DNA of 64,000 nucleotides from Pseudoxanthomonas suwonensis (GTDB taxonomy: Bacteria > Pseudomonadota > Gammaproteobacteria > Xanthomonadales > Xanthomonadaceae): positions 992,001 through 1,056,000 of the forward strand of contig NZ_CP011144.1 of assembly GCF_000972865.1 (NCBI RefSeq), written 5' to 3'. Below are positions 11,736-59,087 of the stretch, piece after piece (positions within the stretch are counted from its first letter, which is position 1; each line of letters starts with the position of its first letter). The position numbers and the translations under genes are program-made. The notes beneath the pieces are model-generated. The model saw only the letters and a program-made list of their open reading frames with translations. It did not search any database and was not told where the DNA came from.

Positions 11736-11834
11736 GGCGGGCCGGGAGTATTGCGGTCGTCTCGACGGCACATCCGTGTGCCGACTCGCCAACGCGGCCA
11801 TCCATGGCCGCTGCCGCAATACTCCCGGCCCGCC
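11736..11834 (-). repeat. Three-way-junction structured repeat, copy A
   Basis: A perfect 21-bp stem (11736-11756 with 11814-11834) encloses two hairpins. One is 11767-11782 (6 bp, loop TCCG on the plus strand). The other is 11794-11811 (7 bp, loop TCCA). Sense is given as minus because the GGA-containing loops of the other copies appear on that strand. Similarity to copies B and C continues about 40-60 bases on both sides. Confidence 0.85.
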
Positions 11835-11905
11835 ACGTCTTCGGGAGCTTCAAGGTCGTGGCTTCGTTCCACCGGAGGACAGCCCACGGCTGCGGTCTTG
11901 GTTCT

Positions 11906-11993
11906 TGTAGGAGCCGGGTTCAGCCGGCGACCCGACGCCGTCGGCACGACGATGCCCTCATGTTTCCGACGCCCGTGTCGCCAGCAAGCTGCA
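11906..11993. repeat. GTAG REP unit, shortened
   Basis: Head TGTAGGAGCCGGGTTCAGCC. The end is changed to GTCGCCAGCAAGCTGCAGG, lacking the final CTCCTACA. It lies between structured repeat copies A and D. Confidence 0.8.
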
Positions 11994-12182
11994 GGGCGCC
12001 ATGGTTTTGCCCCTCCTTTTCGCCACAGGCGAAGGAGGTGAAGAGCGCTGCTTGCACGCCACCTGTGCGCAGCCCGATGAACGCCCGAAGGCCGTGCCTG
12101 AGGACCGGGCGGGCCGGGGATGGGCGCCTTTGCCGTTGCTGTTGCTTCCTGGATCGAAGCCGCGCCCTGAAAGCTCCCGAGG

Positions 12183-12292
12183 CCGCCGTGCCCAGGGGGT
12201 CTGGCGCAAGCAGCACAGGGATGTGCTGCGGTCGCGACTCGAAGGCAGGACGCCGCAGCGGAGCGATGCGCCAGACCCCCTGGGCACGGCGG
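12183..12292 (+). repeat. Three-way-junction structured repeat, copy D
   Basis: A perfect 25-bp stem (12183-12207 with 12268-12292) encloses an 8-bp hairpin, GCAGCACA-GGGA-TGTGCTGC, and a short second hairpin, GGC-AGGAC-GCC. The stem sequence is unrelated to copies A-C, but the layout, the GCGCAAG after the first arm and the linker GGTCGCGACTCG match copy E and resemble copy B. Confidence 0.8.
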
Positions 12293-12414
12293 ACCCCTCC
12301 GAAGCCAGCGCTCCTGCTTCGCTCAGCTTTGGCTGTCGCACAGAAGTACCACAATCCCCCCGCTTTCCCCGGCGTCATCTCGGCCATCACGTTCTTTTTG
12401 CTTACACTGTCGCC

Positions 12415-12798
12415 ATGCCACAGGCCACGCCCTACGCGATCGACGTGGAAGTCACGCCACGCTTCCTCGCGGACCAGTCCGAACCGGACGCGGACCGCTA
12501 CGTCTTCGCCTACACCATCCGCATCCACAACCGCGGCAGCGTCGCCGCGCGCCTGCTGGCGCGCCACTGGCACATCACCGACGGCCGCGGCCGCACCGAA
12601 GAGGTGCACGGCGACGGCGTGGTCGGCGAACAGCCATGGCTGGAGCCGGGCGACGACTACGAATACACCTCCGGCGTGGTGCTGGAGACCGGCGACGGCG
12701 AGATGCAGGGACGCTACGACATGCTGGCTGCCGACGGCACCCGCTTCGACGCCCCCATCGCCCCGTTCCTGCTGACCGTGCCGCGGACCCTGCACTGA
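12415..12798 (+). CDS. apaG: ApaG protein (CO2+/Mg2+ efflux ApaG family)
   Basis: 127 residues, the standard ApaG/DUF525 length. It is a fibronectin-type beta-sandwich with the conserved [40 protein letters not shown] and MQGRYDM regions. Its biochemical role is not settled; it is usually co-transcribed with apaH. The ATG at 12415 gives the family N-terminus. apaH starts 10 bases after the stop, so the two form an operon. Confidence 0.93.
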
Positions 12799-12808
12799 GG
12801 GCCGCCCG

Positions 12809-13660
12809 ATGAGCATCTGGGCCATCGGCGACCTGCAGGGCTGCTACGACGCCACCCAGCGCCTGCTGGAAAGGATCCGCTTCGATCCGGCCGCCGACAC
12901 GCTCTGGTTCTGCGGCGACCTGGTCAACCGCGGCGGCCAGTCGCTGGAGACCCTGCGCCTGGTGCACTCGCTGCGCGAGCGCAGCATCGTCGCGCTCGGC
13001 AACCACGACCTGTCGCTGCTGGCCGTGGGCGAGCGCGCGCCGGCCGAGAAGCGCAAGGTCAATCCCGACCTGCAGCGGGTCGTGTTGGCCGAGGACAGCG
13101 ACGAGCTGCTCGGCTGGCTGCGCCGGCAGAAGCTGGTCCACGCCGACCGCGAACTGGGCTGGATGATGGTCCACGCCGGCCTGGCGCCGCAGTGGACCAC
13201 CCAGCAGGCCGAGCAGTACTCGGCCGAGGTCGAACGCCAGCTGCAGGGCGACGGCTACCGCGGCCTGCTGCGCAACATGTACGGCGACAGGCCGAACTGG
13301 TCGCCGGGCCTGCGCGGCAACGACCGCTGGCGCGCGATCATCAACTGGTTCACCCGCGCCCGCTACTGCACCCCGCGCGGGCGCATCGCCATCGAGGAGA
13401 AGGGCCCGCCGGGCACCCAGGCCGCCGGGTTGTATCCCTGGTACGAGGCGCCGGGCCGGGTGGAGCGCGACCTCAAGATCGTGTGCGGGCACTGGTCGAC
13501 GCTGGGCCTGACCCTGACCCAGGGCATCCATGCGATCGACACCGGCGCGGTATGGGGCGGCAAGCTCACCGCGCTGCAGCTGGACAGCGAGGATCTGCGC
13601 GTGGTGCAGGTGCCGGGCCGCGACGTGACGGCGCTGCCGCCGCACCTGCGCAAGGAATGA
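12809..13660 (+). CDS. apaH: Bis(5'-nucleosyl)-tetraphosphatase (symmetrical)
   Basis: Hydrolyses Ap4A to two ADP and also removes Np4 caps from RNA. 283 residues. The metallophosphatase motifs are in order: IGDLQGCYD (residues 5-13), FCGDLVNRGG and LGNHDLSLLA, then WMMVHAGLAP and a later VCGHWSTLG. The start lies 10 bases after apaG. A REP unit follows 23 bases after the stop. Confidence 0.95.
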   Translation: MSIWAIGDLQGCYDATQRLLERIRFDPAADTLWFCGDLVNRGGQSLETLRLVHSLRERSIVALGNHDLSLLAVGERAPAEKRKVNPDLQRVVLAEDSDELLGWLRRQKLVHADRELGWMMVHAGLAPQWTTQQAEQYSAEVERQLQGDGYRGLLRNMYGDRPNWSPGLRGNDRWRAIINWFTRARYCTPRGRIAIEEKGPPGTQAAGLYPWYEAPGRVERDLKIVCGHWSTLGLTLTQGIHAIDTGAVWGGKLTALQLDSEDLRVVQVPGRDVTALPPHLRKE

Positions 13661-13683
13661 CGCCCGGGAGCGTGTTGTTCTTC

Positions 13684-13781
13684 TGTAGGAGCTGACTTCA
13701 GTCGGCGACACGGGTGTTGGAACCACGAGGGCGTCGCCTGTGCCGGCGTCGTCGTGTCGCCGACTGAAGTCAGCTCCTACA
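13684..13781. repeat. GTAG REP unit (paired)
   Basis: Head TGTAGGAGCTGACTTCAGTC; inverted end GACTGAAGTCAGCTCCTACA. Both halves are the CTGACTTCAG variant, so the unit is nearly a perfect large inverted repeat. First of two units between the convergent apaH and folA. Confidence 0.9.
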
Positions 13782-13806
13782 GAAGAGCGGCCGACGCTGC
13801 TGCTGT

Positions 13807-13904
13807 TGTAGGAGCCGGGTTCAGCCGGCGACCCGACACCGTCGGCACAGGCGACGCCCTCATGGTCCCGACGCCCGTGTCGCCGACTGAAGTCAGCTCC
13901 TGCA
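13807..13904. repeat. GTAG REP unit (paired)
   Basis: Head TGTAGGAGCCGGGTTCAGCC. The inverted end is CTCCTGCA, one substitution from the norm. Ends 26 bases beyond the folA stop. Confidence 0.85.
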
Positions 13905-13930
13905 AGGGAGCGACAACCGGTTCCATCGGG

Positions 13931-14425
13931 TCACAGGCGCCGGTACTCGACGAATTCGAAGGCCTGCGCATGCTTCCCGTCGGCCGCATGCGCCTCGCGC
14001 GACACCGCCCGCCACTGCGCCGGTTCCCATTCCGGGAAGAACGTGTCGGCATCCGCGACCACGGTGTCGACATGGGTCAGGTGCAGCACGTCGGCCCGGG
14101 GCAGTGCGAGCGCATATACCTCGCCGCCGCCGATCACACACAGTTCCTCCGTGCCCTCGGCGGCGGCCACGCCGAGTGCCTCGTCCAGCGAGGCCACCGC
14201 GCGCATGCCCGCGAACGGCACGCGGCCGCCGCGGGTCAGCACCAGGTTGGTCCGCCCGGGCAGCGCGCGGCCGAGCGATTCGGCGGTCCTGCGCCCCATC
14301 AGCACCGGCTTGCCCAGGGTCAGCGCCTTGAACCGCTTCAGGTCGTCCGGCAGCCGCCACGGCAGGTCGTTGCCGCGGCCGATCGCGCGGTTGCGGTCCA
14401 GCGCCGCGATCAGCGAGATCCGCAT
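13931..14425 (-). CDS. folA: Dihydrofolate reductase
   Basis: NADPH-dependent reduction of dihydrofolate, regenerating the tetrahydrofolate used up by ThyA. 164 residues. The conserved N-terminus ISLIAALDRNRAIGRGNDLPW holds the active-site region and WRLPDDLKRFK; PVLMGRRTAESLGR and VIGGGEVYALAL are the NADPH-binding segments. The start at 14425 (MRISLIAALD) is the family start. thyA lies upstream on the same strand. The spacer between them is filled by a large inverted repeat. Confidence 0.96.
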   Translation of the reverse strand: MRISLIAALDRNRAIGRGNDLPWRLPDDLKRFKALTLGKPVLMGRRTAESLGRALPGRTNLVLTRGGRVPFAGMRAVASLDEALGVAAAEGTEELCVIGGGEVYALALPRADVLHLTHVDTVVADADTFFPEWEPAQWRAVSREAHAADGKHAQAFEFVEYRRL

Positions 14426-14426
14426 C

Positions 14427-14585
14427 AGGGCCTGCCAGTGTCCATGCGGCGTGCCACGCCGGTTCTGTGGGGGTGTGCGGCAAGGAAGAGCGACGGCGCG
14501 TATGTCGATACGCAACGGAGCGATGACGCAGTCGCGCGCGTCCACAGGGCCGGTGTGGCATGTTGCATGGGCATTGGCAGGCCCT
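14427..14585 (+). repeat. ~44-bp hairpin element filling the folA-thyA spacer
   Basis: Arms 14427-14471 and 14541-14585 pair along their whole length without bulge or mismatch if G.U is allowed. About nine pairs are G.U or U.G as read on the plus strand; on the minus strand they would be A/C mismatches. A 6-bp inner hairpin GCGTAT-GTCG-ATACGC lies at 14498-14513. The tail CGGAGCGATG of the inner part also occurs in structured repeat copy D. It may be a non-autonomous element or an RNA antisense to the thyA-folA transcript. Confidence 0.75.
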
Positions 14586-14587
14586 AG

Positions 14588-15382
14588 CTAGACCGCCACC
14601 GGCGCCTTGATCGCCGGCAACGGATCGTAGCCCTCGATCGCGATGTCGTCGTAGGCGAAGGCGAACAGGTCGGTCACGTCCGGATTGAGCCGCAGCCTCG
14701 GCAGCGGCCGCGGCGCGCGCGCCAGCTGCTCGCGCGCCTGCACGAAGTGGTTCGAATACAGGTGCGCGTCGCCCAGGGTATGCACGAAGTCGCCGGCCTG
14801 CAGCCCGGTCACCTGCGCGACCATGTGGGTCAGCAGCGCGTAGCTGGCGATGTTGAACGGCACGCCGAGGAAGATGTCGCCGCTGCGCTGGTACAGCTGG
14901 CAGCTCAGCTTGCCGTCGGCGACGTAGAACTGGAACATCGTGTGGCACGGCATCAGTGCCATCTTCGGCAGGTCGGCCACGTTCCAGGCGCTGACGATCA
15001 GCCGGCGCGAGTCCGGGTTGCGCCGGATCTCCTCGACCACCCAGCGCACCTGGTCGATCTCGCTGCCGTCGCCGCCGGTCCAGCGCCGCCACTGCTTGCC
15101 GTACACCGGGCCCAGCTCGCCGTCCGCGTCGGCCCATTCGTCCCAGATGCTGACCTTGTTGTCCTTCAGGTAGGCGATGTTGGTCTCGCCCTGCAGGAAC
15201 CACAGCAACTCGTGCACGATCGAGCGCAGGTGCAGCTTCTTGGTGGTGACCAGCGGGAAGCCCTGGCCCAGGTCGAAGCGCATCTGCCAGCCGAACACGC
15301 TGCGGGTGCCGGTGCCGGTGCGGTCGGCCTTCTCGGTGCCGTGCCCGAGCACGTGGCCGAGCAGGTCCAGGTATTGCCTCAT
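14588..15382 (-). CDS. thyA: Thymidylate synthase
   Basis: Methylates dUMP to dTMP with methylene-tetrahydrofolate. 264 residues, the same length as the E. coli enzyme. The nucleophile is C146 in [16 protein letters not shown] and [17 protein letters not shown] form the phosphate- and dUMP-binding loops. The start codon at 15382 overlaps the lgt stop by four bases (ATGA), so translation is probably coupled to lgt. folA is downstream on the same strand, giving an lgt-thyA-folA order. Confidence 0.97.
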
Positions 15383-16260
15383 TCGGACGCCTCCGCCGGC
15401 CGCGGCTGCAGCACCGGCGCGCGGTGCGAGCGCCACAGCAGGAACAGGCCCAGCGCGATCAGCGGCAGGCTCAGCACCTGGCCCATGGTCAGCCAGCCGA
15501 AGGCCAGGTAGCCCAGCTGCGCGTCGGGCACGCGCACGAACTCCACGGCGAAGCGGAACACGCCGTAGAGCAGCGCGAACAGGCCCGACACCGCGTAGCG
15601 CGGCCGCGGCCTGGAGGAGAACCACCACAGCACGCAGAACATCACCAGGCCCTCGAGGAAGGCCTGGTACAGCTGCGAGGGGTGGCGGGCGAAGGCGTTC
15701 AGCGCGCCGGCGTCGAACTGCGCCTGCAGCGCGGCCGGATCCAGGCTGCGGTACGGTTCGGGCAGGCCGCTCGGGAACACCACGCCCCAGCCGGCCTCGG
15801 TGTACTTGCCCCAGAGCTCGCCGCCGATGTAGTTGCCGATGCGGCCGAAGCCCAGTCCCGGCGGCACCAGCGGGGCGATGAAGTCCATGGTGTCGAAGAA
15901 GTGCAGCCGGTGCCGGCGCGACCACAGCCAGGCTGCGGCCAGCACGCCGAGCAGGCCGCCGTGGAAGCTCATGCCGCCGTCCCAGACCCGCACCAGCATC
16001 AGCGGATCGCGCGCCAGTTCGTCCAGCGCGTAGAACAGCACGTAGCCCAGCCGTCCGCCGAGGATCACGCCGAGCATGCCGTAGAACAGCAGGTCGGCGA
16101 AGGCATTGGCGTCCACGCCCGGCAGGCGGCCGGCACGGATGCGCCGCCGGCCCAGCCACCAGGTCACCAGGAAGCCGAGCAGGTACATCAACCCGTACCA
16201 GTGCACGCGCACCGGCCCCAGCGAGAGGGCGATCGGGTCGATCTGGTGCAGGACGGTCAT
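15379..16260 (-). CDS. lgt: Phosphatidylglycerol-prolipoprotein diacylglyceryl transferase
   Basis: Inner-membrane enzyme that attaches diacylglycerol to the lipobox Cys of prolipoproteins such as BamD. 293 residues, about seven transmembrane segments. The Lgt signature [15 protein letters not shown] (about residue 138 onward) and the [12 protein letters not shown] segment are conserved. The C-terminus overlaps thyA as ATGA. The upstream spacer holds a degenerate REP. Confidence 0.95.
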
Positions 16261-16352
16261 CGCGCGGCCCCGGGAGCGGAGCGTCTATTGTGCCAGCGGA
16301 CCGCGGCGGGTGCGGACATGGCAGCTCATTCGCGCCCGCTCCGCGCTTCCCT

Positions 16353-16401
16353 TGCAGGAGCCGGTCTTGCCGGCGGCGCCGTCGGCACGGGCGACGCCGG
16401 C
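16353..16401. repeat. Degenerate REP head
   Basis: TGCAGGAGCCGGTCTTGCCG resembles the REP head with GTAG changed to GCAG; no matching inverted end is seen. It lies between lgt and the TerC-family gene. Confidence 0.5.
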
Positions 16402-16469
16402 GCGTTCCCGCCGGACCGTCGCCGCACCGGCCCCGGCACCGCGCAAGCGATGCCGGGTGGCGTCCGCAC

Positions 16470-16491
16470 GTTCCGGCGAAGCCGCCGGAAC
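16470..16491 (-). terminator. Hairpin after the TerC-family gene
   Basis: A perfect 9-bp stem (GTTCCGGCG/CGCCGGAAC) starts 6 bases beyond the stop of the minus-strand gene. No T tract follows, so termination is possible but unproven. Confidence 0.4.
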
Positions 16492-16496
16492 GGGGC

Positions 16497-17246
16497 TCAG
16501 AACTCGCCGGCGCCCGGCACGTGCTTGCGCAGCGCGCGACGGCGCATCAGCAGGTTCAGCGTCTCCACCAGCACCGAGAAGGCCATGGCGAAGTAGATGT
16601 AGGGCTTGGGCACGTGCAGGTCCAGGCCATCCAGGACCAGGACCATGCCGATCAGCAGGATGAAGGCCAGCGCCAGCATCTTGATGGTCGGGTTGGCGTC
16701 GATGAAGCGGCCCAGCGGGTTGGCCGCCAGCAGCATCACCGCCACCGCCAGCAGGATCGCGAAGATCATCACCGGGATGTGCTCGGCGATGCCGACCGCG
16801 GTGATCACCGAGTCCAGCGAGAACACGATGTCGATGATCGCGATCTGCACGATCACGATCCAGAACACCTGCGAACTCTTGGTGGTACGCGGGTCCTCGT
16901 CGTGGCCGCCGGTGATCAGCTCGCGGATCTCCATCGTGCCCTTCACCAGCAGGAACGCGCCGCCCAGCACCAGCACCAGGTCGCGGATCGAGATGCCCAT
17001 GCCGCCGATGTGGAACAGGTCGTGCTGCATCCGCGCCAGGAACGCCAGCGAGACCAGCAGCAGGATGCGGGTGATGCAGGCCACCGCGATGCCGAACCGG
17101 CGCGCGAACGCGCGCTGCTCGGGCGGCAGGCGGCCGACGGCGATCGAGATGAACACCAGGTTGTCGATGCCCAGCACGATTTCCAGCGCGCTCAGGGTCA
17201 CCAGGGTCAGCCAGACGTTCGGGTCGGCCAGGAATTCGAAGCTCAT
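16497..17246 (-). CDS. TerC-family integral membrane protein
   Basis: 249 residues with about seven transmembrane helices. The paired TerC-family signatures are [16 protein letters not shown] near residue 20 and [16 protein letters not shown] near residue 138; their acidic residues sit in membrane helices. Family members are linked to manganese or other metal export, often for proteins secreted by Sec, and to tellurite resistance. The exact substrate cannot be told from sequence. It stands alone, with dgkA upstream on the same strand 37 bases away, so the two may be co-transcribed. Confidence 0.85.
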
Positions 17247-17283
17247 CGTGGATCGGTTCCTACAGTCGTTTCAAAAAAAGCAG

Positions 17284-17664
17284 TCAGAGCAGCCGCGGGC
17301 CAAGGACCAGGCCCCAGACCAGCAGCACGTTCAGCATCAGCACGAACACCGCCGCCGAACCCATGTCCTTGGCCCGGCCGGCCAGTTCGTGGTGTTCGGC
17401 ACCGTAGCGCTCGATCACCGCCTCCACCGCCGAGTTCAGCAACTCGGCCGACAGCACCAGCAGCATCGACCCGACCAGCAGCGCCCGCTCGACCCCGTCT
17501 GTCCCCAGCCACAGCGCCAGCGGCGCCAGGACCACGAACAGGTAGATCTCCAGGCGGAAGGAGGATTCGTGCAGCCAGGCCGCGCGCAGCCCCTGCAGCG
17601 ACCATACGGTCGCCTTGAACATGCGCCCGGGCCCGCGCGGCAGGTGTCCGGTCTCGTCGGCCAT
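17284..17664 (-). CDS. dgkA: Diacylglycerol kinase
   Basis: Small inner-membrane kinase recycling diacylglycerol to phosphatidic acid. 126 residues with three transmembrane helices. The DgkA signature is ELLNSAVEAVIERYG (about residues 73-87), with acidic and basic residues at the membrane face (GRAKDMGSAAV). The ATG at 17664 gives the usual short cytoplasmic N-terminus before MFKATVWSLQG. The reading frame continues open upstream without domain support. Confidence 0.92.
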   Translation of the reverse strand: MADETGHLPRGPGRMFKATVWSLQGLRAAWLHESSFRLEIYLFVVLAPLALWLGTDGVERALLVGSMLLVLSAELLNSAVEAVIERYGAEHHELAGRAKDMGSAAVFVLMLNVLLVWGLVLGPRLL

Positions 17665-17984
17665 GCTCAGGCGCCTGCGGCGGCGTGCACGCGGCGGAGC
17701 CGGGCACGGGTCGTGGGCGGAACGGATGGGCGCATGGCGGGATCGGACAGCGACGGACCGCAGATTCTGCCACATCGGGCACCGGCAGCCCCGTCCAGGG
17801 CGGGCGGCCCGGCCGCGCCACGGGGCCGCCGGACGCGGCGGCAAGGCCCGGCGCGGCCCTGTCCGGCCGCCGCCGGCAGCGTGTCCTGGACCAGGTCGGC
17901 GGCCTCCCCGGCGCTTGCGGGTCAGGCGCCGTGCCCGGGCGGGCAGCGACGCACAGCCGGCGCGGTCCACGCCGGCCGGAGCCG
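17665..17984. other. 320-base spacer, no feature recognised
   Basis: Lies between the dgkA start and the tsaB stop, both on the minus strand. It is very GC-rich, with open frames in several phases but none with a recognisable product. There is no REP or clear hairpin family member. It should contain the dgkA promoter. Confidence 0.4.
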
Positions 17985-31066: not shown

Positions 31067-31074
31067 AGCAGCCC

Positions 31075-31157
31075 AAAAGGGGTCAGAGTGAATTTCGCAG
31101 CATGCGCCCCTTCCGACCTGATGGATCTCTGGGGCGAAATTCACTCTGACCCCTTTT
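31075..31157. mobile_element. Short inverted-repeat element, GGGGTCAGAGTGAATTTCGC type
   Basis: Perfect 24-bp inverted ends, 31075-31098 and 31134-31157, each containing GGGGTCAGAGTGAATTTCGC next to an A or T run, flank a 35-base centre. It lies alone between rph and rdgB. The motif recurs in many proteobacterial genomes near small transposases, from memory; none is present here, so it would be a non-autonomous relic or a bidirectional transcription-stop hairpin. Confidence 0.65.
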
Positions 31158-31206
31158 TGGCCGCCCCCTTTTTAGCCCCCTGACTCCTTTTGGATTTCTT
31201 TTCGCG

Positions 31207-45765: not shown

Positions 45766-46338
45766 GAACCGGCTTCAGTCGCCGACACGAGCGTCGGAAT
45801 CACGAAGGCATCGCCCGTGCCGGCGGCGTCGCGTCGCCGGCTGAACCCGGCTCCTACAACAGCCACGGCGCCGCTCTTCTGTAGGAGCTGACTTCAGTCG
45901 GCGACACGGGCGTCGGGATCACGAGGGCGTCGCCCGTGCCGGCGGCGTCGCGTCGCCGGCTGAACCCGGCTCCTACAACAGCCGCGGCGCGGCCGCTCTT
46001 CTGTAGGAGCCGACTTCAGTCGGCGACACGGGCGTCCGGATCACGAGGGCGTCGCCTGTGCCGGCAGCGTCGCGTCGCCGGCTGAACCCGGCTCCTACAA
46101 CAGCCACGGCGCCGCTCTTCTGTAGGAGCTGACTTCAGTCGGCGACACGGGCGTCGGAATCACGAGGGCGTCGCCTGTGCCGGCAGCGTCGCGTCGCCGG
46201 CTGAACCCGGCTCCTACAACAGCCACGGCGCCGCTCTTCTGTAGGAGCTGACTTCAGTCGGCGACACGGGCGTCGGGATCACGAGGGCGTCGCCCGTGCC
46301 GGCGGCGTCGCGTCGCCGGCTGAACCCGGCTCCTACAG
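45761..46338. repeat. Tandem array of five GTAG REP units
   Basis: Units begin at 45761, 45880, 46002, 46121 and 46240, with periods of 119, 122, 119 and 119 bases; the last unit ends at 46338. Each unit has a left half mostly TGTAGGAGCTGACTTCAGTC and a right half GCTGAACCCGGCTCCTACAA. The linkers ACAGCCACGGCGCCGCTCTTC are also repeated, so whole unit-plus-linker blocks were duplicated. The first unit is the most diverged. It fills the gap between the oxidoreductase and the M48 protease. Confidence 0.95.
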
Positions 46339-46388
46339 AAGCGGGCAGCCGCGCGGATCCGCGTGTCCGGCATGCTGCTGGAGCCGCC

Positions 46389-50384: not shown

Positions 50385-50636
50385 CGACCCGCCGGGCGGC
50401 CGCATGGCCGCCACGCACGGGAAACCCCGCGACCTGTCGTCCCGGCGAGACGCTTCGCCACAGCCGAAGTGCTCCATAGCAGCCGTATGGCCGGTCATGG
50501 CTGCTCGAGCCTGGGGATCCAATGACTAGTCAAAGTCGCTGGCATCGGCCGGGGGCCGCCGTCCTTGGGCGGCGTGGCGGTCGTGGCTTCCATGGCCTGG
50601 CGAAAAGACACCGCGATCTGACGGTTCCGGGCCTCC

Positions 50637-50853: not shown

Positions 50854-50907
50854 GAACAGCGCGGCGGCGGCTGTTGCTAGCTACGACCCCGACGTTCCCG
50901 AAGACGT

Positions 50908-51006
50908 GGCAGTGCGGGTGTGTTGCGACAGCGGCCAGGGATGGCCGCGTCGGCGAGTCGGCACAGGGACGTGCCGTCGAGACGACCGCAACATACCCGC
51001 ACTGCC
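50908..51006 (+). repeat. Three-way-junction structured repeat, copy B
   Basis: A 20-bp stem (50908-50927 with 50987-51006), perfect except for one G.U on the plus strand. It encloses GCGGCCA-GGGA-TGGCCGC (7 bp) and GGCAC-AGGGAC-GTGCC (5 bp). The stem sequence is close to copy C; orientation is opposite to A and C. Confidence 0.85.
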
Positions 51007-51063
51007 GCGGCTCAGCCCGAAACCGGCCGCCCCAGGCGCTCTTGCGGCTGCCTCGGCCGGCGC

Positions 51064-51132: not shown

Positions 51133-51159
51133 CATTTCGGTACGGCTATCGGGGTTGGA

Positions 51160-51603
51160 TCAGATCAGCGGAGCCGGGGTAGCCGGCAGCGCGACCGGGG
51201 CCGCCTTCTTCTTGGCGACCTTCTTCTTGGCGGCCTTCTTGGCCGGCTTCTTGGCGGCGGCCTTCTTCGCGGCCTTCTTCACAGCCTTCTTGGCGACCTT
51301 CTTCTTGGCGACCTTCTTCACCGCCTTCTTGGCGGCCTTCTTGGCGACCTTCTTCTTGGCGGCCTTCTTCACCACCTTCTTGGCGGCGGCCTTCTTCGCG
51401 GTCTTCTTCACCGCCTTCTTGGCGACCTTCTTCTTGGCGGCCTTCCTCACCACCTTCTTGGCGGCGGCCTTCTTCACGGCCTTCTTGGCGACCTTCTTCT
51501 TGGCGGCCTTCTTCACCGCCTTCTTGGCGCCGGCCTTCTTGGCGACCTTCTTCACCGCCTTCTTGGCGGCCGGTTTCTTTTTCGCAGCTTTCTTCGTTGC
51601 CAT
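51160..51603 (-). CDS. Histone H1-like lysine/alanine-rich DNA-binding protein
   Basis: 147 residues built almost wholly of KKA, KKV and AKK repeats; only the last ~15 residues (PVALPATPAPLI) differ. It resembles eukaryotic H1 tails, chlamydial Hc1/Hc2, and the H1-like proteins of Xanthomonads and Bordetella, which bind and compact DNA. There is no folded domain. The DNA is strongly repetitive (GCGGCCTTCTTGGC-like units), so copy number may vary between strains. A GAGGAG site precedes the ATG. A long leader and a clear terminator frame it. Confidence 0.9.
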   Translation of the reverse strand: MATKKAAKKKPAAKKAVKKVAKKAGAKKAVKKAAKKKVAKKAVKKAAAKKVVRKAAKKKVAKKAVKKTAKKAAAKKVVKKAAKKKVAKKAAKKAVKKVAKKKVAKKAVKKAAKKAAAKKPAKKAAKKKVAKKKAAPVALPATPAPLI

Positions 51604-51882
51604 GGTTGGCTCCTCGTCAGTGAACTACGGATGGGTAACGCCCAGTGCGAAAACCCGCGGCGGAAGCCGCCGGGGGGAGTCCGTCGGCGCGATACGCACG
51701 TCGATACGGATACGGGAAAACCCGCGCGATGCGGATGCGCGGGCGGTAGATCGGGGATTCGCTGCTTTTCTTGGAGGGAAGCGGGCCTGATCCACCGTCT
51801 GAAGGTTCCTGGCGGATGCCCGAGTTGTGCTTCGCGTTGTGGTGTTGATTCGACTCACTCGCTTCGGCAGGCAGCGTCTGCT
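51604..51882 (-). other. Long 5' leader of the H1-like gene with terminator-like hairpins
   Basis: If the promoter at 51889-51917 is right, the mRNA starts about 280 bases before the ATG. On the minus strand the leader holds a 7-bp hairpin CCCGCGC/GCGCGGG followed by TTTT (51717-51743). It also holds a second, bulged GC hairpin followed by TTTT (51650-51674). A 77-codon open frame with a GTG start (51858 to 51625) spans it. The layout would suit attenuation; nothing proves it. Confidence 0.5.
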
Positions 51883-52450: not shown

Positions 52451-52484
52451 CCAGGAATCCTGGACGGATCGCGAAGGCCGCGGA

Positions 52485-52880
52485 TCAGTCGTCCTCGCCC
52501 TCGATCAGCTCGGCGTAGTCGTCCGGGGCGAGCAGTTCGGCCAGCTGGTCGGCGTCGCTGGACTCGACCACGAACAGCCAGCCCTCGCCGTAGGCGTCCT
52601 CGTTGATGGTCTCCGGCTTGTCGGCCAGCGCCGAGTTGACCTCGACGATCGTGCCGCTGACCGGGGCGTACACGTCCGAGGCGGCCTTGACCGACTCCAC
52701 CACCGCCACCGCGTTGCCGGCCTCGACGCTGTCGCCGACATTGGGCAGCTCGACGTAGACCAGGTCGCCGAGCAGGCCCTGGGCATGGTCGGAGATACCG
52801 ACGGTGACGCGGCCGTTGCCTTCGACGCGCGCCCACTCGTGGGACTTGAGGAACTTGAGGTCGCCGGGGATCTCGCTCAT
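52485..52880 (-). CDS. gcvH: Glycine cleavage system H protein
   Basis: Lipoyl carrier that shuttles the aminomethyl group of glycine between the P, T and L proteins. 131 residues. The lipoylated Lys is K65 in [47 protein letters not shown] is the family N-terminal region. The start at 52880 is [10 protein letters not shown]; an ATG six codons earlier is less likely. gcvT lies upstream on the same strand; gcvP is not in the window. Confidence 0.97.
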
Positions 52881-52986
52881 GGGGGCTGCTCCGGTCACGC
52901 GATGGGTTCTGGATGGGCGGCTAGTTTAGCGGAGGACTCCGCCGCACTGGCAAACGGCCGGCGCGGCGCGCGCCGGCCGCGGCAGG

Positions 52987-54093
52987 TCAACCGAGCACGC
53001 CGGGCTGGGCCTGGCCGTCGCGCACGAACGGGAATTTCACCACCCGCACCGGCACCTCGCGGCCGCGGATGTCGACCCGGACCTGGCCCGGATCGCCGGC
53101 CGGCACGCGCGCGAACGCGATCGCCTTGCCCAGGGTCGGGGAGAAGGTGCCCGACAGGATCTCGCCCTCGCCCTGCGCGGTGAGCACCTTCTGCCCGTGG
53201 CGCAGCACGCCCTTCTCGTCCATCACCAGGCCGAGCAGCTGGCGCGGGGTGCCGGCGGCCTTCTGCGCCTCCAGCTCGGCGCGGCCGATGAAGTCGCGGC
53301 CGTCGTCCAGGGTCACGGTCCAGGCCAGCGCGGCTTCCCACGGGGTGGTCGTCTCGTCCATGTCCTGGCCGTAGAGGTTCATGCCCGCCTCCAGGCGCAG
53401 GGTGTCGCGCGCGCCGAGCCCGGCCGGCTTGACCCCGGCCTCCAGCAGCGCGTTCCAGAACGCGACCGCGTCGGCTTCCGGCAGCACGATCTCGAACCCG
53501 TCCTCGCCGGTGTAGCCGGTGCGTGCCAGGAACAGCGGCACGCCGGCCGCGGACTGCGCCTCGACCGCGGCGAAGCGGCCCAGCTTCTCTGCCGCCGCGC
53601 GGTCGGACTCGCGCAGCAGGCCGACCACGCGCTCGCGCGCCTGCGGGCCCTGCACCGCGACCATGGCGAAGTCCGGCCGCTCGGTCACCTCGACCCCGAA
53701 CGCGGCGGCCTGCTGCTGGATCCAGCCCAGGTCCTTGTCGCGGGTGGCGGCATTGACCACCAGGCGGAAGAACGACTCGCCCAGGTAGTAGGTGATCAGG
53801 TCGTCGATCACCCCGCCGCGCTCGTCGAGCATGCACGAGTACAGCGCCTTGCCCGGCACCTTGAGCTTGTCCACCGAGTTGGCCAGCAGCCGGCGCAGGA
53901 ACTCGCGCACCCGCTCGCCGCGCAGGTCGACCACGGTCATGTGGCTGACGTCGAACATGCCGGCCTCGCGCCGGACCAGGTGGTGCTCGTCGAGCTGCGA
54001 GCCGTAGTGGATCGGCATGTCCCAGCCGCCGAAGTCGACCATCTTGGCGCCGAGCGCGCGGTGGGTGTCGTTGAGGACGGTCTTGCGGGTCAT
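52987..54093 (-). CDS. gcvT: Glycine cleavage system T protein (aminomethyltransferase)
   Basis: Transfers the methylene group from the H-protein-bound intermediate to tetrahydrofolate, releasing ammonia. 368 residues. [43 protein letters not shown] and the Asp in NLYGQDMDE are the folate-binding hallmarks. gcvH follows after 106 bases in the same direction, so an operon is likely. Confidence 0.96.
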
Positions 54094-54292
54094 GGCGGTC
54101 TCGCGGAAAGGAAGACCGCCATTATCCCAGATGCGGCGGATTCCTCCGCCAAACGCCTTTCCGGCGGGCGCGCTGTCCTTCTCCCTCCGGGACTAGGTGC
54201 CCTCGGGGTAGAAGGTGCCCGAAGGGCGGATGAGGGTACGGAGGAGCGACGGACGCTTGAACTCACGCAGCCTCACCCGACCCTCTCCCCAA

Positions 54293-54315
54293 CCCCTCTC
54301 CCGAAGGGAGAGGGG
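54293..54315 (-). terminator. CCCCTCTCCC hairpin after nfeD
   Basis: A perfect 10-bp stem (CCCCTCTCCC/GGGAGAGGGG, GAA loop) 31 bases beyond the stop, with another CCCTCTCCCC copy adjoining. It is a widespread intergenic hairpin type; the T tract is absent. Confidence 0.5.
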
Positions 54316-54345
54316 CTCAGGCGGCAGCGACGATGACTGCGGTGC

Positions 54346-54777
54346 TCACGCCTCCTGCACCTTCAGCACCATGCCGTTCACCGCGACCACCCGGACCGGG
54401 GTGCCGGCCGGCAGGTCGGGGCCTTCCACCACCCAGAAGGCATCGCCCAGCTTGACCCGCCCGCGGCCGGCGACGATGGCCTGGTCGAGCGGGGCGACCA
54501 GGCCGACGGTCTGCTCGGCGCGGCGGTTGAGCAGCGGCTGGTCGCTCTGGCGCGCGCCCTTGCGGAACCAGCGCCGGTAGACCTGGATGGAGACGAAGCT
54601 CAGCACCACGAACGCCGCCACCTGCGCCAGCACCGGGATGTCCGGCACCAGCAGCACCGCCAGGAACACCGCCACCGCGGCGAAGCCCATCCACAGCAGG
54701 AAGGCGCCCGGCGCCAGCGTCTCGGCCGCGATCAGCAGCAGCGCCAGTGCCGCCCAGGCCACCACGTCGACGCGCAT
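54346..54777 (-). CDS. NfeD-like membrane protein
   Basis: 143 residues. Three or four transmembrane helices in the first ~75 residues, then a soluble OB-fold domain (about 85-143; VGLVAPLDQAIVAGRGRVKLGDAFW), as in short NfeD/YbbK proteins. These pair with SPFH proteins in membrane microdomains. The SPFH gene ends 3 bases upstream, so the two form an operon. Confidence 0.9.
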   Translation of the reverse strand: MRVDVVAWAALALLLIAAETLAPGAFLLWMGFAAVAVFLAVLLVPDIPVLAQVAAFVVLSFVSIQVYRRWFRKGARQSDQPLLNRRAEQTVGLVAPLDQAIVAGRGRVKLGDAFWVVEGPDLPAGTPVRVVAVNGMVLKVQEA

Positions 54778-54780
54778 GGC

Positions 54781-55746
54781 TCAGCCCCCCGGCCTGGGCG
54801 GCTGCGCCCGCGGCGCGCCCGCCTTCTGCTGCTGGTCGGCCAGGGCCCCGCGGGCCAGTTCGGCGATGCCGGCGATCGAGCCGATCACGCCGCTGGCTTC
54901 CATCGGCATCAGCACGAACTTCTGGTTCGGCGCGGTGGCCAGCTTCTCGAACGCCGCCACGTACTTCTGGGCCACGAAGTAGTTGATCGCCTGCACGTCG
55001 CCGTTGGCGATCGCCTCGGACACCATCTGGGTGGCCTTGGCCTCGGCCTCGGCCAGGCGCTCGCGCGCCTCGGCCTCGCGGAACGCCGCTTCCTTCTGGC
55101 CTTCGGCCTGGAGGATGGCGGCCTGCTTGTCGCCCTCGGCGCGCAGGATCTCCGAGGAACGGTGGCCCTCGGCCTCGAGGATCACCGCGCGGCGGTCGCG
55201 CTCGGCCTTCATCTGCCGGGCCATCGAATCGATCAGGTCGCGCGGCGGCTGGATGTCGCGGATCTCGATCCGGGTGACCTTGATGCCCCACGGATGGGTG
55301 GCGTGGTCGACCACGTTGAGCAGCTGGGCGTTGATCTTCTCGCGGTTGGACAGCGATTCGTCCAGGTCCATCGAGCCGATCACGGTACGGATGTTGGTCT
55401 GGACCAGGGCGATCGTCGCCACCTCCAGGTTGGCCACCTCGTAGGCGGCCTTGGCCGCGTCCAGCACCTGGAAGAACACCACCCCGTCCACCCGCACCAC
55501 CGCGTTGTCCTTGGTGATCACTTCCTGGCTGGGCACGTCCAGCACCTGCTCCATCATGTTCACCTTGCGGCCGACGCCGTAGATGATCGGGATCAGGAAG
55601 TGCAGGCCCGGGTCCAGGGTATGGGTGTACTTGCCGAAGCGCTCCACCGTCCACTCGTAGCCCTGCGGCACCATCCGCACCGTCTTGAACAGCACGATCG
55701 CGCCGGCCACCAGCAGCACCAGTGCCAGAAAACCCGATGAGAACAT
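54781..55746 (-). CDS. SPFH/stomatin-family membrane protein (QmcA-like)
   Basis: 321 residues. One N-terminal transmembrane helix (about 3-20), an SPFH domain with VPQGYEWTVERFGKYTHTLDPGLHFLIP, then a long coiled coil rich in Ala and Glu (about 180-265). Similar to E. coli QmcA, which scaffolds inner-membrane proteins and interacts with FtsH-type proteolysis. The ATG at 55746 follows AAGGAGCGGGGGG, a strong ribosome-binding site, which decides against an in-frame start ten codons upstream. Divergent from the ECF sigma gene. Confidence 0.92.
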   Translation of the reverse strand: MFSSGFLALVLLVAGAIVLFKTVRMVPQGYEWTVERFGKYTHTLDPGLHFLIPIIYGVGRKVNMMEQVLDVPSQEVITKDNAVVRVDGVVFFQVLDAAKAAYEVANLEVATIALVQTNIRTVIGSMDLDESLSNREKINAQLLNVVDHATHPWGIKVTRIEIRDIQPPRDLIDSMARQMKAERDRRAVILEAEGHRSSEILRAEGDKQAAILQAEGQKEAAFREAEARERLAEAEAKATQMVSEAIANGDVQAINYFVAQKYVAAFEKLATAPNQKFVLMPMEASGVIGSIAGIAELARGALADQQQKAGAPRAQPPRPGG

Positions 55747-55897
55747 CCCCCCGCTCCTTCGGCCGTTCGCGGCCACTCCCTAGTCCGGCCCAGTATAGGC
55801 ACTACCGCGACCGGGAACCGGCGCGGCGGAGCGACGGTCGCAGGAACAGCACGCCAGGCTGCGACCCTTTTGCAGCTGCCCGCATCCAGATAGCGGT

Positions 55898-56548
55898 ATG
55901 ACCACCGAATCCAGCCTGCTCGCCCCCGCCAGCTGCATGGCCCTGGCCCCGGCCGTGGCCGCCGCGGACCTGCGCGACGACCGCGCCGCGCCGCGCTCGG
56001 GCTTCGCCATCGAGGTGCCCGAGGCGCTGCTGGCGCGCGCGCGGCGCGGCGAGGCGGCGGCGTTCGAGCAGCTGTACCGCTGGTTCGAGCGGCCGGTGTT
56101 CACCCTGGCGCTGCGCCTGTGCGGCGACCGCGACGAGGCCAGCGAGGCGCTGCAGGAAACCATGCTAAAGCTGCTGCGCCGGGTCGGCGAGTACCGCGGC
56201 AGCGGACCGTTCTGGGGCTGGCTGCGGCAGATCGCGATCAACGAGGCGCTGCAGCGGCTGCGTCGTGGCCGCCGGCTGGACGAAACCCTGCCGCTGGACG
56301 GCCACGAATTCGAGGACGGCGCGCCGCCGCCGCCGGCCGCCGCCGACGCGGCGCTGCTGCAGCGCGCCCTGCTGGTCCTGCCGGCCGCCACCCGCAGCGT
56401 GCTGTGGCTGTACCACGCCGAAGGCTATACCCACGAGGAGATCGCGGAGCTGATGCAGCGCACCCCGAGTTTCTCCAAGTCGCAGCTGGCGCGCGGCACG
56501 CGCCGGCTGCGCGCGCTGCTGCAGGTCGAGGAGGCTTCCCATGTCTGA
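55898..56548 (+). CDS. ECF-family RNA polymerase sigma factor
   Basis: 216 residues. Region 2 (about 48-118) contains FEQLYRWFERPVFTLALRLCGDRDEASEALQETMLKLLRRV. Region 4 (about 150-210) has LPAATRSVLWLYHAEGYTHEEIAELMQRTPSFSKSQLARGTRRLR; in many ECFs the turn before the recognition helix reads xTxxxVxSxLxRG, close to TPSFSKSQLARG here. A ~35-residue N-terminal extension is unusual. The stop lies inside the next gene, which overlaps by 8 bases. The cognate promoter is not identifiable by eye. Confidence 0.9.
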   Translation: MTTESSLLAPASCMALAPAVAAADLRDDRAAPRSGFAIEVPEALLARARRGEAAAFEQLYRWFERPVFTLALRLCGDRDEASEALQETMLKLLRRVGEYRGSGPFWGWLRQIAINEALQRLRRGRRLDETLPLDGHEFEDGAPPPPAAADAALLQRALLVLPAATRSVLWLYHAEGYTHEEIAELMQRTPSFSKSQLARGTRRLRALLQVEEASHV

Positions 56549-57230
56549 GCGCAACACCCCCGCAGCGGCCGACTGGCATCACGCCTTCGCCGCACTGCCG
56601 CTGGAAACCCCGCCGGGCGACGGCTGGCAGCGCGTCGCCGCCGGACTGGCGCGTCCGCCACGGCCGCGCCGCCGCGTGCTGCCCTGGGCGGTGGCCGCGG
56701 CGACCGCCTGCCTGGCCGCGCTGCCCGTGCTCGGCCTGCTGCGCGCGCCGGCGCCGCCGGCACCGGATGCGGTGGCGGGCATCGACAGCCGCACCGCCGC
56801 GCCAGACGCGACCACCGGACACAGCGCGGCGGCGGTCCTGCCGGTCACCGACACCGCGCCGCGCAACGAACCGCCGGCGCCGGTCGCATCGTCGGCCGCC
56901 CCGCCCGCGCCCGACGCCGTCCCGGCCACCCGCCCCCCCATGGAACCGCTGTACGCCGAATCGGCGCGGCTGGAAGCGCTGCTGGCCCAGCTGTCGGGAC
57001 CGGAACCGGGCGACGGCGTGCAGCTGGCGCTGAGCGCGTCGCTGCGCTCGCAGGTATCCGCCATCGACGAGGCGCTGGCCGGCAACGCGCTCGACGAGCC
57101 CGCGCTCGCCGGCCTGTGGCAGCAGCGCGTGGACGTCCTGCGCGAACTGGCCAGCCTGGCGGCCGGCCAGCGCTGGAACGCCCTGTACGGCGGCGGCGAT
57201 ACCGACTACGCCCTGGTCCAGGTCTATTGA
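56541..57230 (+). CDS. Probable anti-sigma factor, single-pass membrane protein
   Basis: 229 residues, no named family. A ~45-residue cytoplasmic part is followed by one transmembrane helix (about 48-70, VLPWAVAAATACLAALPVLGLL), a Pro/Ala-rich periplasmic linker (about 72-135) and a helical C-terminal domain. No ZAS zinc motif (HxxxCxxC) is present. Overlap with the ECF sigma gene and this topology make an anti-sigma role likely. The PDZ gene follows after 50 bases. Confidence 0.72.
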   Translation: MSERNTPAAADWHHAFAALPLETPPGDGWQRVAAGLARPPRPRRRVLPWAVAAATACLAALPVLGLLRAPAPPAPDAVAGIDSRTAAPDATTGHSAAAVLPVTDTAPRNEPPAPVASSAAPPAPDAVPATRPPMEPLYAESARLEALLAQLSGPEPGDGVQLALSASLRSQVSAIDEALAGNALDEPALAGLWQQRVDVLRELASLAAGQRWNALYGGGDTDYALVQVY

Positions 57231-57280
57231 ACCCGGCCCCCAGCCCCAACACGCACCACACGACCACACGAGAGAACGAC

Positions 57281-58342
57281 ATGAAACACCCCCGCTTCCC
57301 CCTCGCCAGGCGCCTCGCCCCGCTCGCCCTGTCCCTCGCCTGCGCGCTGGCGCTGCCGGCCTGGGCGCAGGACGACACGGCCGCCCGCCAGAAGCAGCTC
57401 GAGGCCGCGCGCGCCGACCTGCAGGATGCCGCGCGCCGGATCGCCGAGCTGTCCGGCGAATCGGTCCTGGACGGAAACCGCATCCAGTCGATCCGCGTTG
57501 CCGGCGCCGAGGCCGGCAAGCCGCGCCTGGGCGTGCTGCTGGGCGTCGACGGACAGGCCGGCGTGCGCATCGCCGGCGTCACCCCCGGCAGCGGCGCGGA
57601 CAAGGCCGGGCTGAAGGCCGGCGACCGCCTGCTGAAGGTGCGCGGCAAGGCGATCGCCGGTGGCTCGGGCGAGCAGCGCGTGGAGGACGCGCGCAAGGCG
57701 CTGGCCGGGCTGGAGAAGGACAAGCCGGTGCGCATTGCCTACCAGCGCGAGGGCAGGCAACACGAGGTCGACGTGACCCCGGGCGCGACCCAGGCGCTGG
57801 CGTTCACCCGTGCGTTCCCCGGCAGCGGCGAGGACTTTGCCGCGGTGTTCGACGGCGCCGAACTGGCGCGGCTGAAGGAGCTGGGGCCGCAGCTGCGCGG
57901 CGAGGTGATCCGGCTGTCGCGACCCGGCGCCTGCCAGGGCGATGGCTGCAGCGTGCCGCTGCTGGCCGAGGCGTTGCGCTGGGACGGCCTGAACCTGCTG
58001 GCGCTGGAGCCGCAGCTGGGCCGTTACTTCGGCACCGACCGCGGCGTACTGGTGCTGTCGCAGGGTGCGCTGCCGGGGCTGCAGGCCGGCGACGTGATCC
58101 AGAAGATCGAGGGCAAGGCGGTGGCCACCCCGCGCGAGGCGATGCAGGCGATGACCGCCAAGCAGCCCGGCGAGCAGGCCAGGGTCACGGTTGTGCGCGA
58201 CCGCAGTGCGCGCGAGGTGCCGGTGACGGTGCCCGAGCGGATGCGTTCGCTCGACTTCATCCCGGTCCCGCCAGCGTCACCGGCACCGCCTGCCCCACCC
58301 GCGCCCAGGCCGACGCCGGCCGTGGCCGCCACGCCCGCCTGA
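57281..58342 (+). CDS. Exported double-PDZ protein
   Basis: 353 residues. A Sec signal peptide (cleavage after PAWAQ, about residue 29) is followed by a short helical segment. The first PDZ domain (about 75-175) has GVRIAGVTPGSGADKAGLKAGDRLLKVRGK; the second (about 235-325) has LPGLQAGDVIQKIEGKAVATPREAMQAM. The tail is Pro/Ala-rich. There is no protease domain, so it is not a DegP or site-2 protease by itself. As third gene of the ECF operon it may sense or bind envelope substrates and tune release of the sigma factor (inference). A terminator follows. Confidence 0.82.
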   Translation: MKHPRFPLARRLAPLALSLACALALPAWAQDDTAARQKQLEAARADLQDAARRIAELSGESVLDGNRIQSIRVAGAEAGKPRLGVLLGVDGQAGVRIAGVTPGSGADKAGLKAGDRLLKVRGKAIAGGSGEQRVEDARKALAGLEKDKPVRIAYQREGRQHEVDVTPGATQALAFTRAFPGSGEDFAAVFDGAELARLKELGPQLRGEVIRLSRPGACQGDGCSVPLLAEALRWDGLNLLALEPQLGRYFGTDRGVLVLSQGALPGLQAGDVIQKIEGKAVATPREAMQAMTAKQPGEQARVTVVRDRSAREVPVTVPERMRSLDFIPVPPASPAPPAPPAPRPTPAVAATPA

Positions 58343-58394
58343 GCACGGCGGCCCCGCAAGACACCTACGCGCCGGACCCCACCGGCCTTCCCCC

Positions 58395-58422
58395 TCCCCC
58401 GCGGCATGCGGGGGATTTTTTT
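58395..58422 (+). terminator. Rho-independent terminator of the ECF-PDZ operon
   Basis: An 8-bp stem TCCCCCGC/GCGGGGGA with loop GGCAT, followed by seven T; 53 bases after the stop. Confidence 0.92.
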
Positions 58423-58514
58423 GTTCCTGGCTCATTTGAGAGGGGATGGGTCATAAGGCAACTGCAACTGCAACCGCAAGAGCGCCGGGGGTGGTGGGCT
58501 TCGGGCTGAGCCGC

Positions 58515-58613
58515 GGCAGTGCGGGTGTGTTGCGGTCGGCTCGACGGCACATCCGTGTGCCGACTCGCCGACGCGGCCATCCATGGCCGCTGCCGCAACA
58601 CACCCGCACTGCC
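58515..58613 (-). repeat. Three-way-junction structured repeat, copy C
   Basis: A perfect 21-bp stem (58515-58535 with 58593-58613). It differs from copy A at five base pairs, each changed on both arms so pairing is kept. Inner hairpins have the same sequence as in copy A (loops TCCG and TCCA on the plus strand). Confidence 0.88.
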
Positions 58614-58690
58614 ACGTCTTCGGGAAATTTGGGGCGTGGCTCCGTTCCGTCGTCCAGAAGCAACAGCCGTCGTTGCGCCGCTCGCTGTTC

Positions 58691-58784
58691 TGTAGGAGCC
58701 GGGCTTGCCCGCGACACGACACCGGCACGGGCGACGCCCTCATGATCCCGACGCCCGTGTCGCCGACTGAAGTCAGCTCCTACA
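58691..58784. repeat. GTAG REP unit (paired)
   Basis: Head TGTAGGAGCCGGGCTTGCCC; inverted end GTCAGCTCCTACA. Slightly short (94 bases) through a small deletion in the middle. Confidence 0.88.
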
Positions 58785-58808
58785 GAAAAGCGGCTGCGCC
58801 GTGGCGGT

Positions 58809-58905
58809 TGTAGGAGCCGGGTTCAGCCGGCGACACGACGACCTCGGCACAGGCGACGCCCTCGTGATTCCGACACCCGGGTCGCCAGCAAGCTGGGCTC
58901 CTACA
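58809..58905. repeat. GTAG REP unit (paired)
   Basis: Head TGTAGGAGCCGGGTTCAGCC; inverted end CAGCAAGCTGGGCTCCTACA. Confidence 0.88.
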
Positions 58906-58974
58906 GGAAACCCGGAACCATCGGGCGGCGGTTTTTCGCCAGACCATAGAAGCCACGACCACAACGCCGCCCGA

Positions 58975-59087
58975 GGACGTCGTCCTGCCGGGGTATGGCG
59001 CAAGTGGCACAGGGATGTGCCACGGCCCCGAGTTGAGGGCAGGATGCCCGACCGAGGGGTAAGCCATGCCCTGGCAGGACGGCGGCC
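58975..59087 (+). repeat. Three-way-junction structured repeat, copy E
   Basis: A 25-bp stem (58975-58999 with 59063-59087) with one A/G mismatch and three G.U pairs on the plus strand. It encloses GTGGCACA-GGGA-TGTGCCAC (8 bp) and GGGCA-GGA-TGCCC (5 bp). It shares GCGCAAG and the GRYCSCGAGTYG-like linker with copy D. The outer stem differs in sequence from D. Confidence 0.82.

Follow-up and report, generated by a model that had tools for sequence, protein, structure and literature searches.

The window considered here is a stretch of 64,000 nucleotides from the genome of Pseudoxanthomonas suwonensis (contig NZ_CP011144.1, positions 992,001 to 1,056,000), a single contig of 3.89 Mb. It carries five copies, A to E, of an element of about 100–113 bp that folds into a three-way junction and presents GGA in the loops of its two hairpins. 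We put the probability at roughly 55% that these copies are TwoAYGGAY-like structured RNA elements, spread through intergenic regions as inverted doublets, and that they are putative sites for dimers of RsmA/CsrA, a global regulator. The fold, its covariation, the conservation of the loops on one strand, the doublets, their spread and an insertion polymorphism at one site were established by computation. The kind of element is already known; the spreading inverted doublet, here with repetitive extragenic palindromic (REP) sequences in its middle, appears to be new.

Two Families and Selection on the Fold

A preliminary description of the window, made from the sequence alone, had reported five copies of a single family at the core positions listed in Table 1. 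All five fold as claimed; over their exact intervals, A, B, C, D and E have folding energies of −74.3, −91.2, −73.5, −79.0 and −81.3 kcal/mol, respectively. They fall instead into two related families, A, C and D making up family 1 and B and E family 2. Between A and C, the five stem-pair changes that had been described as matched on the other arm were correctly read; there is, further, a one-sided change that produces a G.T wobble, and the innermost stem pair is lost in C. The covariation reported at two pairs of the first inner hairpin is a like-for-like comparison between B and E (C-G/U-A and A-U/G-C). Of the pair originally named, D and E, D belongs to the other family and lies on the opposite strand.

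Covariance models of the kind called for in the preliminary description were built from 28 copies of each family and the genome was searched, 150 candidates being scored per model. Well over a hundred copies were found, with at least 82 strong copies (≥90 bits) in family 1 and at least 55 in family 2. In sequence-only alignments from this genome, compensatory double changes occur in 5 of 45 pairs in family 1 and in 12 of 38 in family 2. Three further alignments (A4, A5 and A6) were fitted to the model structures, toward which pair counts taken from them lean. A5 and A6 lack three of the 55 family-2 copies and a family-1 copy of 33 bits. The wider alignment, A4, has 65 rows from matches with E ≤ 1e-8, 55 from relatives and 10 from this genome, and omits weaker matches in L132, L225, L237 and L241. 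An alignment that also held opposite-strand matches, A3, contributed no counts.

In A4, double changes are present at 33 of the 38 pairs, and 96.0% of the cells are paired, compared with 35.7–46.6% for slid structures. The null for covariation was modelled on R-scape, with a FastTree tree, substitutions re-placed per branch and 100 replicates. Under this null 20 of the 38 proposed pairs in A4 had E < 0.05, compared with one of 8,740 other pairs, and that one extends the second hairpin. Covariation is present in all three helices. The preliminary description would have given up selection on a folded molecule had many aligned copies shown no significant covariation; the pairing in A4 and the tree-based null support such selection well, in the form of a folded single strand.

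Which strand is folded can be judged from the wobble pairs. At majority Watson–Crick pairs the ratio of G.T to A.C cells was 45:23 in family 1, 19:6 in family 2 and 110:37 in the wider alignment; counted as distinct types, the ratios were 13:16, 14:6 and 30:14. Because G.T exceeds A.C and the loops are conserved on one strand, selection appears to act on one single strand, that bearing GGA, though only the wider alignment shows this clearly.

Inverted Doublets

The copies are arranged in inverted doublets, which the preliminary description had overlooked. Counts of clustering, context and co-variation of ends used 83 family-1 and 55 family-2 positions. The 83rd family-1 position is a weak match of 33 bits with what looks like coding sequence on its outer side, and one of the 47 doublets counted below may therefore be half decayed or spurious. 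There are 89 clusters, 49 of two copies and 40 single. In 47 of the 49, a family-1 and a family-2 copy lie inverted in divergent orientation, the GGA strands of the two elements facing away from each other; the remaining two are a divergent pair of family-2 copies and a pair in the same orientation. Partners lie 91 to 506 bp apart (n = 49). The two ends of the doublets co-vary (Mantel r = 0.31, with 0 of 2,000 permutations as high, for 47 doublets), which suggests that they spread together as one unit.

REP cores of the TGTAGGAGC type are found in the middle of 46 of the 47 doublets in this genome. At the relatives' loci of A4, 17 of 20 neighbouring matches less than 1 kb apart are divergent. 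The smallest gap among them is 39 bp, and the REP pattern used finds no core in 14 of the 17. Since relatives keep divergent pairs, mostly without REP cores, the inverted doublet seems to be the core unit, to which this lineage appears to have added the central REPs later.

Solo copies often appear to be decayed doublets. Of the 35 solo family-1 copies, 15 have no match to a partner on the side where one would be expected. The other 20 show there a match to family 2 or to the flank on its inner side, and in 12 of them this match reaches 25 nt or more into family 2 or runs past it. The family-2 partner of copy C seems to have been reduced to a scar, in which the outer and inner flanks are retained and the long palindrome is gone; comparison with intact copies would place the junction near 50560–50569.

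By eye, the outer ends of the doublet resemble each other in inverted form, and conservation fades there into simple repeats of the GCAACC type. Terminal inverted repeats with a target-site duplication would mark a miniature inverted-repeat transposable element (MITE); no such duplication was resolved at the doublet ends, where the boundary is blurred by these repeats. Hexanucleotide arrays of this type stand beside many left ends, on the outer side of family 1 (for example at L134, L142 and L166), and may be a target or a by-product. Beside several right ends (for example at L134, L146 and L161), part of the family-2 outer end is duplicated in tandem, with a unit of roughly 45–55 bp.

Distribution Among Relatives

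The doublet A-B sits between ksgA and apaG, identified by Pfam matches to RrnaAD and ApaG. The best named matches of this ksgA are from Pseudoxanthomonas species, at 91% identity, in a comparison from which records of this genome or very near ones were possibly left out. The ksgA-apaG gap measures 825 bp in this genome. In the 74 of 80 fetched relatives in which both genes were found in order, it measures 6–290 bp, with a median of 70.5 bp. Empty sites in related strains, a check proposed in the preliminary description, are found here: the relatives lack the doublet, and there is insertion polymorphism at this one site. In the 80 relatives' loci, two models gave 4 and 5 matches with E ≤ 0.01. 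Only one match lay inside the gap, a truncated remnant in Pseudoxanthomonas broegbernensis (L250), and different repeats occupy the gap in some relatives (L245, L247). A 47.8-bit match to model R2 at 5704–5828 of L257, from Stenotrophomonas panacihumi, lies outside the gap and is a possible copy in another genus.

Among 16 genomes of the same genus, model R1 gave from 0 matches (two genomes) to 74, with at most 81 candidates scored; these counts do not separate the two families and may include matches on the opposite strand. Beyond the genus, R1 matched 3 of 8 genomes of the family's other genera and none of 16 from other families. The order and class were searched under stricter filters with at most 11 and 9 candidates per genome, respectively, and copy counts from these searches are floors. 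Model R3, which is broader, matched 27 of 299 genomes in the order, 25 of them from the same family, this genome included, and two from another family. In the class-wide search 3 of 369 genomes matched: this genome, a congener, and one weak match outside the order (G516). Plasmid and phage records searched with D gave no match.

Relation to TwoAYGGAY

The preliminary description knew of no described family with this shape. The layout is that of Rfam family RF01731, TwoAYGGAY, which D matches end to end on the GGA strand with 47.0 bits, above the curated cut-off of 43. RF01731 belongs to clan CL00106, which it shares with RsmV. TwoAYGGAY was proposed as a CsrA-binding RNA, and a tandem-GA feature was reported for it (PMC4333381); the taxa named for it are human gut, gamma-Proteobacteria and Clostridiales (PMC2864571).

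In this genome, where 150 of 261 candidates were scored, nine places match RF01731 with E ≤ 0.01 and three of them exceed the cut-off, all belonging to family 1. None of 14 control genomes matched. Relatives were searched under stricter filters, with an E limit of 0.001 and at most 51 candidates per genome, so that copy counts are floors; 7 of 41 genomes matched, four above the cut-off. In a different family of the order, two genomes gave 5 and 9 matches, some of them partial. This genome gave none in the relatives' search compared with nine in its own, most likely because of the stricter filters and fewer candidates. Likewise, the window as a whole gave no Rfam match at the gathering threshold, where fast filters lose the match of D found by the permissive search. 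Other permissive matches (VA, microRNA families, isrG and others) were far under their cut-offs and were taken as chance, and a match to RsmV at 59006–59021 had 12.5 bits against a cut-off of 100 and was not used as evidence of membership.

The elements resemble TwoAYGGAY in their outer stem round two GGA hairpins and in a tandem-GA-like motif. A loose sequence pattern finds this motif in the second stem of 78 of 82 family-1 and 50 of 52 family-2 copies; some relatives have Watson–Crick pairs at the place. They differ in that the base before GGA is not only a pyrimidine and that the second loop of family 2 reads CAGGA. A dispersed inverted doublet is, in the literature found, not described for TwoAYGGAY. 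With CsrB, RsmX, RsmY, RsmZ and RsmU the elements share GGA motifs in hairpin loops of one RNA. Those are, in contrast, dedicated small RNAs (sRNAs), whereas here there are more than 100 dispersed copies without a recognised promoter. Among the matches listed, no title or opening of an abstract dealt with dispersed repeats that bind RsmA in Pseudoxanthomonas or its relatives.

GGA Loops and Putative CsrA Sites

While the stems change, GGA is kept: of 82 family-1 copies, 79 have it in the first loop and 80 in the second, and of 52 family-2 copies, 51 have it in each loop. These counts are mildly biased, since the models were built from GGA-bearing copies and copies without GGA would score lower. 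Both loops carry GGA in all 65 rows of the wider alignment. Both loops in family 1, and in family 2 the first, read ANGGA, with N variable. Such loops are more than a chance feature: in the perfect hairpins of the window, counted per strand, loops of ANGGA or CAGGA are found in 8 of 16 inside the elements and in 2 of 338 outside them.

In family 1 the two GGAs are 28 nt apart in 76 of the 78 copies in which two were found (82 examined). In family 2 the distance from the first to the last GGA is 28–30 nt in 13 of 51 copies and 41–42 nt in 38, a count that also caught a later GGA; between the two loops of E the distance is 29 nt. The consensus for CsrA obtained by systematic evolution of ligands by exponential enrichment (SELEX) is RUACARGGAUGU, and two sites can be bridged at a distance of 10–63 nt (PMC7652899). 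The first GGA loop of E resembles this consensus. By motif and distance, the loops fit the CsrA consensus and the spacing fits bridging by one dimer. CsrA/RsmA-binding RNAs are expected to have at least two GGA hairpin-loop sites at bridging distance, and the elements have them.

The genome has one csrA gene (G000:C1:3197467-3198138). It lies about 340 bp, measured to the predicted gene end, from one family-1 copy. By eye, among the matches listed, no csrA-adjacent copy was seen in a few relatives, a comparison that was not systematic, and the proximity was treated as chance.

Genomic Context

A codon-usage gene finder was applied to 84 of the 89 clusters, five solo family-2 copies being left out. 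None of these clusters falls within a predicted gene, and two overlap gene ends, by 10 and 35 bp. Where both neighbours are known (n = 81), 30 sites are between convergent genes, 48 between tandem genes and 3 between divergent genes. Gaps of at least 150 bp in the window are themselves seldom divergent (6 convergent, 13 tandem, 3 divergent), so the scarcity of divergent sites is suggestive only. Where the outer neighbour is known, 61 of 82 family-1 and 31 of 50 family-2 copies face its 3′ end.

Two Y1_Tnp genes were found in the genome, and neither is flanked by strong copies; transposase families besides Y1_Tnp were not searched. One of the two (L348) lies among TGTAGGAGC REPs and the other (L349) between other inverted repeats. 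The best match to model R3 near these genes has 29.6 bits and lies inside the REPs. In the window, REP pairs of the TGTAGGAGC type are clustered in tandem at 45830–46351, with a spacing of about 119–122 bp; REPs of this type also flank the L348 transposase gene. An inverted repeat with AAAAGGGGTCAGAGTGAATTT-type arms at 31068–31164 resembles the repeats flanking the L349 gene (AAAAGGGGTCAGGTTCATTTT).

Interpretation

The preliminary description had offered a mobile element, a structured RNA or a protein-binding site as possibilities. This was broadly right, as the element looks like all three. In the reading that we favour, TwoAYGGAY-like elements with RsmA/CsrA sites, each copy has a long outer stem round two hairpins presenting GGA loops about 28–29 nt apart, a layout that would let one RsmA/CsrA dimer clamp both loops. 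Two inverted elements form a doublet that has spread between the genes of the genus, probably by being transposed or copied whole, as suggested by the doublet arrangement, the co-varying ends, the decay of solo copies and the ksgA-apaG gap. Doublets would persist in 3′ and intergenic regions, where read-through transcripts would contain the element. Because the two GGA strands of a doublet diverge, a transcript crossing it from either side would carry one sense element, most likely as one site for an RsmA dimer, and, as we read it, orientation to transcription would be made unimportant. From the likeness in motif and family, RsmA would be expected to bind such read-through RNAs, with titration of RsmA or its tethering to mRNA 3′ regions as the effect. 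In favour of this reading are the covariation in all three helices, the GGA retained in both loops on one strand, the RF01731 match of D with its shared layout, the tandem-GA-like motif, the fit to CsrA sites, the single csrA gene and the precedent of RsmU in Xanthomonas. A stronger form, in which the 137 or more copies, nearly all bearing two GGA loops, act as a mobile sponge of the CsrA family that supplies one RsmA pool with read-through transcripts from both directions and in which copy number sets the activity of the regulator, is possible though doubtful.

Several findings weigh against this reading. The second loop of family 2 is CAGGA and never ANGGA (0 of 52). Very stable stems may hinder binding of CsrA, and the hairpins selected by SELEX mostly had no more than four contiguous pairs (PMC7652899), compared with 7–8 pairs in the first hairpin here. 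RsmU, an RsmA-binding sRNA derived from a 3′ untranslated region in Xanthomonas, still bound RsmA after all four of its GGA motifs had been altered (PMC7694677), so GGA alone is no full predictor. The cut-off for RF01731 is passed in this genome by only three family-1 copies and by none of family 2, and family 1 in this genome has no excess of G.T when distinct changes are counted (13 vs. 16). Orientation to transcription is mixed in tandem contexts: the outer gene's 3′ and 5′ ends face the copy in ratios of 18:13 for family 1 in doublets, 15:18 for family 2 and 11:5 for solo family-1 copies. A scan of the D-E region for sigma-70-type promoters found none, which is a weak test at this G+C content. 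Two of the 16 genomes of the genus gave no element match, and the element is therefore dispensable.

The foremost alternative is a selfish element of the type of REP doublets forming hairpins (REPINs), which would fold as single-stranded DNA and be recognized at its loops by a transposase, with no RNA function for the host. It would account for the high and very uneven match numbers among congeners, for the inverted doublets and for the co-varying ends of a doublet spreading as a unit. The uneven numbers, the inverted doublets and the intergenic sites, rarely between divergent genes (3 of 81), are all much as reported for REPs (PMC3733652), and folded single-stranded DNA would also give the bias to one strand. 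REPs and REPINs mobilized with REP-associated tyrosine transposases (RAYTs) are likewise dispersed, intergenic and arranged as inverted dimers, with singletons as dimer remnants (PMC3733652). They differ from the present elements in that REP palindromes measure 20–40 bp rather than about 100–113 bp with a three-way junction, and the strong copies here do not flank the Y1 transposase genes found. The same paper describes Stenotrophomonas self-complementary terminal repeats organized alike, a likeness by description only; the passages on them make no mention of GGA loops. Such an element predicts neither CsrA-type GGA loops nor a match to a CsrA-type Rfam family. We consider it unlikely, if still a serious competitor.

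An intergenic RNA acting without RsmA, as a bidirectional terminator or a stabilizer of mRNA 3′ ends, would agree with the very stable structures and with the tendency of copies to face the outer gene's 3′ end. The only terminator-like site in the D-E region, however, is an ordinary one upstream of D and outside the elements, and a terminator has no need of conserved GGA loops. We consider this explanation improbable. Long palindromes can be corrected by template switching between their arms, and matched changes could arise from such repair without selection on the fold; the likely deletion of a palindrome beside copy C is in keeping with this process. Repair does not explain the conserved loops or the excess of G.T over A.C (30 vs. 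14 distinct types in the wider alignment), and the short inner hairpins covary too. It is the least probable of the explanations considered, and we give it very little weight.

If the repeats bind RsmA, a mobile repeat, and not a dedicated sRNA gene, would help to set the level of free RsmA, and congeners with 0 to 74 model matches would constitute a natural experiment. A spreading repeat may in this way act as a genome-wide decoy or tether for RsmA/CsrA. TwoAYGGAY, whose link to CsrA was a prediction in PMC4333381, would gain a lineage with many copies in which that link could be tested. RsmU of Xanthomonas was the one RsmA-binding antagonist RNA of this bacterial family that the literature searches found (PMC7694677), in work that included no survey of such RNAs. 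If spread proves to be purely by transposition of single-stranded DNA, the elements would represent a larger REPIN-like architecture, with a transposase still to be found.

Features of the Window

Positions are given in Table 1; for the five copies, the strand is that of the GGA loops.

Table 1. Positions of the elements and associated repeats in the window.
Feature	Position	Strand	Evidence and remarks
Copy A, family 1	11721..11846 (core 11736-11834)	minus	Model R2, 149.0 bits; left end of doublet A-B
One REP core, middle of doublet A-B	11905..11940	plus	Sequence
Copy B, family 2	12172..12308 (core 12183-12292)	plus	Model R1, 143.1 bits; right end of doublet A-B
Likely scar of a deleted family-2 copy beside C	50543..50592	minus	Sequence; blastn matches of family 2 with flanks, on the inner side of C
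Copy C, family 1	50896..51021 (core 50908-51006)	plus	Model R2, 145.7 bits
Copy D, family 1	58500..58625 (core 58515-58613)	minus	Model R2, 153.9 bits; Rfam TwoAYGGAY match 58503-58625
REP repeats, TGTAGGAGC type, four cores, middle of doublet D-E	58690..58907	.	Repeat search; strand unassigned
Copy E, family 2	58966..59101 (core 58975-59087)	plus	Model R1, 150.4 bits; right end of doublet D-E
First GGA loop of E with closing pairs, ACAGGGATGT	59009..59018	plus	Sequence
Second GGA loop of E, CAGGATG	59040..59046	plus	Sequence; 29 nt from first GGA

Dense 12- and 15-bp repeats at 51151–51642 fall within a predicted minus-strand gene (51160–51603), which, judging from the DNA, may encode a lysine- and alanine-rich protein resembling histone H1.

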